From the IMG/VR virus record IMGVR_UViG_3300030333_000498, positions 1 through 24,532 of that record: 24,532 nt of DNA; one strand, given 5' to 3'. Below the pieces are notes generated by a model, which was not told where the DNA came from, made no database searches, and saw only the letters and a list, made by a program, of their open reading frames with translations. The position numbers and the translations under genes are program-made. The stretch is from a virus. Shown piece by piece: positions 1 through 2,551 of this stretch (position 1 is its first letter; each line of letters begins with the position of its first letter).

Positions 1-454
1 CTCCACCACCACCGGATCCACCACCACCAACGATGCCACCACCGCCGGCAACAGTAGGACCTTTTTGAGATTCGGCTGCTTCTCTAAAGAAACCAGATAT
101 AGGTTTAGTAAGTTCTACCATCTCTGTTAAATTAGCAGACATAGCAATAACTTCTTGTTTTAGTTCTACGTTATTTTTTAATAATTCTTGATTAGCTAGT
201 AGCAATGAAGCAGCATCTTCAGGAGATATACTACCACCAGAGCTCTCCATTGCACTATTGATTCCAGCCAGGTCTTCAGCAGTAACCAGCTTCTCCATAA
301 GGACCGTAAAGTTCTTATTGAGTGTATTAAGATTACGCTGTTGTAGGCCTATAATACCAAAAACCTTTTGCTGATGATGAATAACATCATTCATCAACTT
401 CTTGTTTCCACCACCTTGTGGTAATGGTCTTGTAGGTCTGTCTGTATCGGCCAT
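1..454 (-). CDS. Probable tail tape-measure protein, N-terminal part (runs off left edge)
   Basis: The ATG is at 454 (minus), and the frame stays open to the window edge, giving 151 codons. An AAGGAAA ribosome binding site lies just upstream, overlapping the end of the preceding gene. The visible part is soluble and largely helical: a polar start (MADTDRPTRPLPQGGG), helical segments around residues 20-60, a helix-rich stretch around 85-125, then a glycine-rich linker (GGGGIVGGGGSGGGG) at about residues 137-151. The tape-measure call rests on position: it is downstream of a chaperone-like gene pair, where tailed phages usually place the tape measure. No diagnostic motif is visible in the part present, so another long structural protein is possible. 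Confidence 0.5.
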   Translation of the reverse strand, partial: MADTDRPTRPLPQGGGNKKLMNDVIHHQQKVFGIIGLQQRNLNTLNKNFTVLMEKLVTAEDLAGINSAMESSGGSISPEDAASLLLANQELLKNNVELKQEVIAMSANLTEMVELTKPISGFFREAAESQKGPTVAGGGGIVGGGGSGGGG

Positions 455-464
455 TTATTTTTCC

Positions 465-836
465 TTACTTGCCAAAGGCTCTGCCTGCTTCTGATATACC
501 AAATGCACCAAGTGTAACTACAACAAATGATGTGTAGATGGTGTCTGATATTACCAGATCTTGTCCTGCGAAAGCTGTTACTAGATCACATATACCAAAT
601 ATAGTCATCAAACCAAATGATATAAAACCGATGATTGCCTTCTCGTTTACATCATTGTCATCTAAAAAGATATCCATGAATTTTCTTTTTGGAGGAGCTA
701 GTCTTTTCTTAGCTTCAGCAGCTTCTTCTTGCATCTCTTTAATAGTATCTTCTGCCATATCTAATTTTTCAATTAGTGACATATACTTATCGAGATCTAT
801 TTCGACTTCATTTCGACTGTTGTCTTGTTCTGCCAT
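465..836 (-). CDS. Small membrane protein with coiled coil and two TM helices
   Basis: This is 123 aa and starts at 836 behind a good ribosome binding site (AGAGG, 8 nt spacer). Residues 12-46 are charged and heptad-like, rich in Glu and Lys (probable coiled coil). A basic/proline hinge follows (APPKRKF, 47-53), then an acidic LDDNDVNE stretch. Hydrophobic segments at about 67-90 (AIIGFISFGLMTIFGICDLV) and 99-114 look like a helical hairpin in the membrane. It lies 21 nt after the frameshift ORF and 10 nt before the probable tape-measure gene. Similar small membrane proteins occur at this place in marine T4-like phages as far as I recall, without known function. A holin-like role or a tail-membrane contact are both possible; neither is shown by the sequence. 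Confidence 0.75.
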   Translation of the reverse strand: MAEQDNSRNEVEIDLDKYMSLIEKLDMAEDTIKEMQEEAAEAKKRLAPPKRKFMDIFLDDNDVNEKAIIGFISFGLMTIFGICDLVTAFAGQDLVISDTIYTSFVVVTLGAFGISEAGRAFGK

Positions 837-857: not shown

Positions 858-998
858 TCAGAACTTTCTCTGTTGCTGACGTTCTTTTTCCGCTTCTAAC
901 CACTCTAGTAACATTTCAACGTACATATCTCGTTCAAACGGAAACATATTCTCTAACTCCGTTACAGAATATTTATGGTGTTGCACCATATTAAACAT
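858..998 (-). CDS. Short ORF downstream of gp26: C-terminal extension reached by frameshift
   Basis: From the first ATG (998) this is 46 aa: MFNMVQHHKYS, then VTELENMFPFERDMYVEM and a charged C-terminus, ending TGA at 858-860. It fills the space between the gp26-family gene and the membrane protein gene. The same frame is open upstream through the end of gp26 and reads YICLSHTDLGNYYQL before the Met. That stretch resembles conserved sequence I recall from marine T4-like phages (L-S/T-H-T-x-L-x-x-Y-Y, then QHHKYS and PFER/PWER). No Shine-Dalgarno site precedes the ATG. I therefore think it is mainly translated as the tail of a -1 frameshift product of gp26, not from its own start. Confidence 0.7.
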   Translation of the reverse strand: MFNMVQHHKYSVTELENMFPFERDMYVEMLLEWLEAEKERQQQRKF

Positions 999-1744
999 CA
1001 ATTGGTAATAGTTGCCTAGGTCAGTGTGACTTAGGCAAATGTAAAAAAATCGTAGATACCTCTAAGAGTTTTCTTTTTACTAACACCGTCTGCATCATAA
1101 ATTATATCGTGCTCTACCTGTGGTACATTCTGCATGAAGTTACTTATTTCTGCTAAATTTTTAGATGTTAATGATTCTACAAAATCCTTTTGCTCTTTTT
1201 CAGAGTAATCGTCAAATATAAAAACATCATCATCATTGTAAATAGATTCAATACATTTACCAATCAAGTCAAATAAAAACTCAGTTGGTTGTGCTGCATC
1301 TATTTTCATTTCACTTAAAACACCAAATTTAGGATATCTCAATTTAATTTGATATTCATCATTCAATTTAATATTTGGATCTTCAGCTCGATCCATATTT
1401 ATTTCTACATTCTCTAAATCTACTTCTGTATCATAATATGTCTCTTCACCATCCTTTTCATCTTTTACCTTGAGCTTAACGATGTTGTTCACACTAATTG
1501 ATCTTAACTTTAAAAATAAAAAGTCTACCTCAAAGGCAGGTAAGTCATCTACTTTAGTATCGTCTTGAATACAGTTAGCTAGAACTTGATTGATAGCTTT
1601 TGAAATTTCCGCACTCTCCTGACTGGATTGGGCGAACAATAATATTTTTTCTTCTTTAACCGTATACGGTCTTAAAGATACACTCTTCTTCGTAAATGGA
1701 AGTTTAACATCTACACTCGGAGCGTCAATTTTAGGCAATCCCAT
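858..1744 (-). CDS. Predicted gp26-family -1 frameshift fusion (tail assembly chaperone-like)
   Basis: The predicted product is 295 aa: 234 residues of the gp26-family protein (1744 to 1043), a -1 slip on T TTT TTT, then 61 codons from 1043 to 861. It would resemble the G/GT pair of lambda-type phages, where a minor frameshift product upstream of the tape-measure gene guides tail assembly. Three sequence facts support it: a perfect slippery heptamer in the correct phase four codons before the zero-frame stop, a hairpin beginning 4 nt after it, and a long -1 frame that continues across the gp26 stop without interruption. The join is inferred; the frameshift efficiency cannot be seen. Confidence 0.65.
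1012..1049 (-). promoter_or_regulatory. Programmed -1 ribosomal frameshift signal (slippery heptamer plus hairpin)
   Basis: Reading the minus strand, TTTTTTT occupies 1049-1043 in the phase T TTT TTT relative to gp26 codons (GAT TTT TTT ACA TTT GCC TAA). After a 4-nt spacer (ACAT) comes a hairpin: TTGCCTA (1038-1032) pairs with TAGGCAA (1018-1012), an A-C mismatch follows, GTCA (1030-1027) pairs with TGAC (1023-1020), and the loop is CAC (1026-1024). The gp26 stop codon (1033-1031) overlaps the 5' arm. The spacer is slightly shorter than the usual 5-9 nt, but fraying of the outer A-T pairs would bring it into range. Confidence 0.7.
1031..1744 (-). CDS. 26: Baseplate hub assembly protein, gp26 family (T4_baseplate family)
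   Basis: This is 237 aa (T4 gp26 is about 208). It starts at 1744 behind GGAGA with a good spacer, 15 nt after the gp54-like gene. The N-terminus (GLPKIDAPSVDVKLPFTKK, then LRPYTVKEEKILLFA) and the region near the C-terminus (FDDYSEKEQKDFVESLT, then SNFMQNVPQVEHDI and LRGIYDFF) match what I know of the T4-like baseplate hub/assembly family found in cyanophages. The protein is soluble and acidic. In T4, gp26 belongs to the hub assembly group (26, 51, 27, 28, 29). Its place upstream of a probable tape-measure gene, with a frameshift signal at its 3' end, suggests a chaperone role. Whether gp26 or gp51 is the nearest T4 counterpart is not settled here. Confidence 0.75.
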   Translation of the reverse strand: MGLPKIDAPSVDVKLPFTKKSVSLRPYTVKEEKILLFAQSSQESAEISKAINQVLANCIQDDTKVDDLPAFEVDFLFLKLRSISVNNIVKLKVKDEKDGEETYYDTEVDLENVEINMDRAEDPNIKLNDEYQIKLRYPKFGVLSEMKIDAAQPTEFLFDLIGKCIESIYNDDDVFIFDDYSEKEQKDFVESLTSKNLAEISNFMQNVPQVEHDIIYDADGVSKKKTLRGIYDFFTFA

Positions 1745-1759
1745 AATAATTCTCCATTA

Positions 1760-2551
1760 TTAATCAAATAAAGACCCGAGAGTCTTCGCATTATTTACAA
1801 CCTGTATTGCATCTTGTACATTACGAGGTTTCTTAATCGTCTTAGCGATTTCATAAGCACCTTTCATTTTGGATAGGAACTGGAATAGATTTAATCTACC
1901 TTCTGGATCTGCAGTAGTAACAGGATCTCCCATACTTGCATTCCATGCTCTATAAGTAAACTGAACGGTTACTTCTAGAATCTCATCAGTTTGTTTCCAA
2001 CCTAAAGCTGCTTCCGGTATAACTTGTGGCCATGCATCATACAAATGCCAATTCATTATACCACCTTTTGCTTTTGGTTCAGCATCGGAATCATCATTCT
2101 TCTTACCACGACCTTTATCACCAAACATAGTGATATCTATATCGCAGATATAATCATCATAATATCCAACCTCACCAAAAAAACCACCACCAGGATCTGT
2201 AGAAAATTCACCTTCATCTAATTGTTTAGCCATAACTAAATTAGACCATTTATAAAGGAAATCATAAACCATTCCTTTACCGTCCATCATGAAGGTAATA
2301 TTGATTGGAGGGAATATAGCTCCCTTCGCTCTTCTTTCTAAAGGTCCAAAACCTTGTCGTTGAATCTCTGCTATATCAAATGATATACCACCAACGTTAA
2401 CTGCATTAGCAAACAACGTAAGTGATTCAGGATCATCTGTTATTTGCTTCTGGCCTTTTGTTTGTTTAGTAAAAGTAACCAAAAAGGTATCTGGGCGCAT
2501 AAACCCATGTTCTGATACCGCCGATTTTAAATCGTTTACATTAAAAGCCAT
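1760..2551 (-). CDS. 54: Tail-tube-like baseplate protein, probable tube initiator gp54
   Basis: This is 263 aa (T4 gp54 is 320). The ATG at 2551 overlaps the stop of the upstream gene (TAATG), so translation is probably coupled. The order of motifs fits the tail-tube/gp54 fold: FMRPDTFLVTF near residue 17, ANAVNVGGISFDIAEIQRQG, FPPINITFMMDGKG, FLYKWSNLVM, then a late segment with QTDEILEVTVQFTYRAW. Such proteins polymerise or cap a hexameric tube. An acidic/basic loop (KGRGKKNDDSDAEPKAKGG) is inserted in the middle. Because gp48 lies just across the divergent promoter and no sheath gene is nearby, the tube initiator gp54 is more likely than the major tube protein gp19. Confidence 0.65.
   Translation of the reverse strand: MAFNVNDLKSAVSEHGFMRPDTFLVTFTKQTKGQKQITDDPESLTLFANAVNVGGISFDIAEIQRQGFGPLERRAKGAIFPPINITFMMDGKGMVYDFLYKWSNLVMAKQLDEGEFSTDPGGGFFGEVGYYDDYICDIDITMFGDKGRGKKNDDSDAEPKAKGGIMNWHLYDAWPQVIPEAALGWKQTDEILEVTVQFTYRAWNASMGDPVTTADPEGRLNLFQFLSKMKGAYEIAKTIKKPRNVQDAIQVVNNAKTLGSLFD

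Follow-up and report, generated by a model that had tools for sequence, protein, structure and literature searches.

The window, i.e., the whole stretch of DNA analyzed here, comprises 24,532 nucleotides and corresponds to positions 1 to 24,532 of the IMG/VR virus record IMGVR_UViG_3300030333_000498. On its minus strand, a gp26-family ORF ends with GAT TTT TTT ACA TTT GCC TAA. Its zero-frame product of 237 amino acids matched the PF12322 (T4_baseplate) profile at 1e-48 with 166.3 bits (curated cut-off of 24.5), as well as phrog_150, the T4 gp26 family, at 1.6e-54. The run of seven T at 1049-1043 is the only one within this gene. Translation in the −1 frame from this site gives FF-YICLSHTDLGNYYQLMFNMVQHHKYSVTELENMFPFERDMYVEMLLEWLEAEKERQQQRKF, with 61 codons after FF, and ends at a TGA codon (860-858). 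This extension matched phrog_634, 'baseplate hub assembly catalyst', at 1.5e-23, a family named after T4 gp51. An earlier note made from the letters alone had claimed the phase of the heptamer, the hairpin, the stop codon and the 61-codon −1 extension, and its coordinates proved exact. What it missed is that this extension is the very gene labelled '51' in further marine T4-like phages.

The order of genes is tail tube, gp26, gp51, a small ORF and tape measure, which parallels V - G - T - H of lambda, the tape measure being placed by synteny with HTVC008M. The position of the pair upstream of a probable tape measure, as had been stated in the earlier note, is thus supported by synteny, but a 123-aa ORF (465-836) intervenes. 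This ORF has a hydrophobic C-terminal half, and the ORFs found in the same slot in phiN3, HTVC008M, DLP6 and Melnitz are similar in size and unnamed. A comparison with the PHROG profiles gave no credible match for it, and no match was obtained with the phiN3 ORF from the same slot. Scanning the window against Rfam gave no match either. The features of the locus are collected in Table 1.

Table 1. Features at the gp26–gp51 locus of the window, with strand and supporting evidence; the last row gives positions by locus for relatives.
Feature	Position	Strand	Evidence
Probable tape measure gene, N-terminal part, cut by the end of the window	2..454	−	Position only: the ORF at the same place in HTVC008M is a 'putative tail tape measure'
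ORF of 123 aa separating the chaperone and tape measure genes	465..836	−	Same slot occupied in phiN3, HTVC008M, DLP6 and Melnitz
−1 frame running from the heptamer across the gp51 (TAC-C) domain as far as the TGA; 63 codons, stop not counted	858..1049	−	phrog_634, coding and conservation tests, translation
Likely stimulatory hairpin, 4 nt 3' of the heptamer, with the zero-frame stop inside	1012..1038	−	Folding z; stem kept in L007
Zero-frame stop TAA, 3 codons past the heptamer	1031..1033	−	Read from the sequence
Gene of the gp26 family (237 aa) for the short chaperone form, TAC-N	1031..1744	−	PF12322, phrog_150, predicted fold
Slippery heptamer T_TTT_TTT, zero-frame phase	1043..1049	−	Sequence; T_TTT_TTN in 120/122 clusters
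Tail tube protein, directly upstream of the gp26-family gene	1760..2551	−	phrog_45, 9e-27
Loci without the full heptamer	L053 2190-2223; L055 2180-2211; L058 2780-2804; L060 2140-2175		

As a check against chance, all in-phase X_XXY_YYZ heptamers within the ORFs of the window were collected, giving 36 sites. The heptamer at 1049-1043 opens 63 codons in the −1 frame with six zero-frame codons remaining, and the runner-up opens 26 codons in the middle of a gene. Only the former, among the 36, combines a position at the end of a gene with a long open −1 frame. A further in-phase T_TTT_TTT is present inside the tail tube gene (2177-2183, minus strand), where the −1 frame shuts after three codons.

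Conservation was evaluated on loci gathered from IMG/VR and from isolate genomes, which were clustered at 80% amino acid identity into 122 clusters; these share ancestry and, hence, are not fully independent observations. In each of the 241 loci carrying both parts, which make up these clusters, the gp51 domain is placed at −1 relative to gp26. The motif T_TTT_TTN was found 0 to 8 codons ahead of the zero-frame stop in 120 of the 122 clusters, as T_TTT_TTT in 59, T_TTT_TTC in 57, T_TTT_TTA in three and T_TTT_TTG in one. The remaining two are represented by Vibrio phage YC and Salmonella phage Vi01, members of the Ackermannviridae, in which the domain nevertheless follows in the −1 frame. Over 526 pairs of moderately related sequences, substitutions were distributed as 30/18/51% on codon positions 1/2/3 of the −1 frame. 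The comparison of relatives, which the earlier note had proposed, bears out the heptamer and the coding −1 frame; the hairpin is kept in part of them. At Phe-Phe pairs located elsewhere in the same gp26 genes of the 120 clusters, the xxT_TTT context was found in 2 of 106 cases vs about 24% expected from codon use, as if stray slip sites were being avoided. In some Vibrio phages and Ackermannviridae, only CTTTTT, GTTTTT, GCTTTC or ATTTTC precedes the stop, and the open frame downstream is again −1. Slippage by a single tRNA may operate at such junctions without the full heptamer.

The −1 frame could alternatively be a separate short gene 51, translated from an internal ATG, GTG or TTG start coupled to the gp26 stop. 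Most of the GenBank records examined carry gp51 as its own CDS (phiN3, S-PM2, P-SSM2 and HTVC008M among them), start–stop coupling is common in phages in general, and the −1 frame of the window has ATG codons some 16 to 19 codons past FF. However, conservation of the −1 protein already begins at codon 4 (L4 75%, H6 88%, L9 88%, Y12 68% and Y13 75%), i.e., before the point at which a start codon usually first occurs. The first ATG of the −1 frame is mostly codon 18 or 19, or codon 3, and varies between codons 1 and 43 across clusters. In addition, 95 of 120 clusters have a Shine–Dalgarno match of at least 4 nt ahead of gp26; ahead of any early −1 start, such a match occurs in 8 of 120, no more often than in random stretches (10 of 120). 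Since conservation starts early, the starts are scattered and Shine–Dalgarno matches are at the random level, separate initiation of the −1 frame is unlikely on sequence grounds. The retention of the heptamer in 120 of 122 clusters would also be left without a reason, and a separate gene 51 is therefore considered a very improbable explanation. The earlier note had named relatives without a slippery site, with a clear start and ribosome-binding site for the short ORF, as evidence that would count against a frameshift; when such relatives were sought, the opposite was found.

The structure downstream of the heptamer was also studied. The hairpin at 1038-1012 reads TTGCCTA-A-GTCA-CAC-TGAC-C-TAGGCAA, with the zero-frame stop (1033-1031) inside. 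Its folding energy is −12.9 kcal/mol, with a z of −5.8 (about −5), and none of 200 shuffled sequences folded as well. It is among the strongest hairpins of the compared loci. For 45-nt segments starting immediately 3' of the heptamer, z averaged −1.11 over clusters and was below −2 in 25% of them, vs mean values between −0.54 and 0.02 at six other offsets, indicating that hairpins are enriched just past the heptamer. In the nearest distinct relative, L007, whose gp26 is 51% identical, CC in the 3' arm is replaced by TT, so that the A·C mismatch of the window becomes A-U and one G-C becomes G-U; the stem is, therefore, kept. A stem folds at the same place in many relatives and is absent in others. 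The hairpin is likely a frameshift stimulator; since it is strong in the window, yet z < −2 is reached by just 25% of the clusters, it may be an optional one. A more tentative proposal, which we hold to be somewhat doubtful, is that a stop-enclosing hairpin is a selected and lineage-tuned stimulator across marine T4-like phages, where stop and structure would jointly set the ratio of short to long chaperone. No description of such an element was found in the literature searched, the full text of Vladimirov et al. (2022) lying outside that search. A second hairpin, TATGGTG/CACCATA, inside the −1 ORF was dropped as a candidate, since L007 has TATGGTT/CATCATA and the pairing is not kept.

The fold of gp26 was predicted by AlphaFold from an alignment of 16 sequences, drawn from the window and metagenome loci only, giving a model with pLDDT of 86.7 and pTM of 0.81. 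A Foldseek search of this model against the PDB returned nothing significant, and a PDB search by sequence profile gave nothing credible. In a second structural comparison against the PDB, the top matches were 3fgx (Z of 7.9), the HK97 tail assembly chaperone 2ob9 (Z of 7.6) and 3klu/YqbN (Z of 7.2), with the next one at 2.3. Both 3fgx and 3klu are likewise phage chaperones or chaperone-like proteins, so that the three best entries belong to one kind. The matches are limited to about residues 1-95 of gp26, with an rmsd near 4. With Z below 8 over about residues 1-95, the model suggests with moderate confidence that the N-domain of gp26 has a tail assembly chaperone fold. The isolated −1 domain was predicted as a helical, low-confidence structure (pLDDT of 72.8, pTM of 0.47).

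The explanation that best accounts for these data, to which a probability of about 0.94 is assigned, is that the locus belongs to a marine T4-like phage and that a programmed −1 frameshift would yield the long form of its tail assembly chaperone, of the lambda G/GT type, with gp26 as the short form and gp26-51 as the long one. Both the frameshift and the lambda analogy had been put forward in the earlier note, and they are strongly supported by the frame kept in 241/241 loci, the heptamer in 120/122 clusters, the lack of an own ribosome-binding site and the chaperone fold. We infer the slippage, its frequency and the binding roles as follows. The majority of ribosomes would stop at the gp26 stop codon and release the short form (TAC-N), and a minority would slip back one base with two Phe-tRNAs on T_TTT_TTT, aided by the downstream hairpin. 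The slipped ribosomes would bypass the zero-frame stop and append the 61-codon gp51 domain, giving the long form (TAC-NC). If lambda gpG/gpGT is taken as the model, the tape measure protein would be coated by numerous short copies together with a few long ones, whose gp51 domain would recruit the tail tube protein.

Lambda gpG/gpGT is similar in that a −1 slip takes place shortly before the short chaperone gene ends, in that this gene is flanked by those for the tail tube and the tape measure, and in that a minor, C-terminally extended form results. The lambda heptamer is GGGAAAG, which is a difference from the window, and the likeness runs through the fold resemblance to the HK97 chaperone only, not through any demonstrated sequence similarity. 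The lambda gpG/gpGT frameshift is a known system (Levin 1993; Xu 2004).

The long form could also be produced by slippage of the RNA polymerase instead of the ribosome. In its favour, the window contains a run of seven T, and slippage on homopolymers has been described from a length of about nine upwards. Against it, the run is limited to six T (T_TTT_TTC, TTA or TTG) in half of the clusters. Tandem tRNA slippage fits the six-T heptamers better, and the downstream hairpins suit a ribosomal signal, so that slippage of the polymerase is rated as even less probable than a separate gene. The least credible explanation is that the frame change reflects gene decay or an error of sequencing or assembly. 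Homopolymer runs are error prone, but this explanation is refuted by the recurrence of the identical junction across 122 divergent clusters and across independently sequenced isolate genomes.

Genes 26 and 51 of T4 were also analyzed and, as the earlier note had stated, they are separate, and they are divergent. T4 gp51 matched PF12322 over residues 1-201 (3.9e-52), phrog_150 almost from end to end (2.6e-84) and, with its residues 147-246, phrog_634 (1.2e-23). Its C-terminus aligns with the −1 domain found in the marine phages. In T4 gp26, just the N-domain is present. Since gp51 combines the N- and C-domains in one ORF and gp26 is the N-domain alone, T4 holds the short and long forms in two genes, and by these alignments T4 gp51 is the unsplit long form. 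No heptamer relic was found at the end of T4 gene 26, where Phe-Phe is kept as TTC TTT (GAG TTC TTT GAG), and the −1 frame of this gene is not a gp51 domain. The window differs from the T4-type arrangement, in which the unsplit long form has its own gene, in that it has the split −1 arrangement.

The abstract by Vladimirov and colleagues is said to describe frameshifting as conserved in several T4-like groups and T4 as encoding both forms in genes 26 and 51. Tail assembly chaperone genes in T4-like phages were identified by Vladimirov, Gautam and Davidson (Virology 2022, 566:9-15), as cited in PMC10885494, and PMC12846349, crediting the same authors, refers to polyT as known −1 slippery signals of the TAC-N genes of T4-like phages. 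The earlier note, which knew of no described frameshift at this locus in T4-like phages, is contradicted by this 2022 publication as PMC12846349 reports it. Since slippery sites of T4-like chaperones appear from these citing papers to be already in print, the frameshift described here is not new in kind. The chaperones belong to the same family (PF12322 gp26 plus gp51 domain), and the window departs from them in details alone, as a new metagenomic member with a strong hairpin. Chaperone frameshifting is also described for Vandenendeviridae / Andersonviridae, with phage Adele (PMC12846349), a system that differs from the window in its GTTTTT motif and in the phage families concerned. T4 was listed as an exception in a 2016 review (PMC5009743); the present data fit the published view that T4 swapped an ancestral frameshift for two genes, and T4 is no longer an exception. 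In addition, they correct a 2010 comparison in which cyanophage gp51 was read as a truncated protein without the first 200 residues (PMC3037559).

Searching with the joined protein by tblastn matched 704 phage records, 584 of them across at least 80% of its length, and in all the matches listed it aligned as two pieces. Among the GenBank records examined, the gp51 annotation is missing in DSL-LC03, ACP17 and Vi01, and none has the joined gene annotated. In many genomes of marine T4-like phages, '26' and '51' would, thus, be one frameshifted gene, for which the records examined give two genes or miss the second part. For the window itself, the result is mainly a correction of annotation. The gp51 domain is also unannotated in L048, L057, L058 and other phage records, and the annotated starts are scattered and poorly supported.
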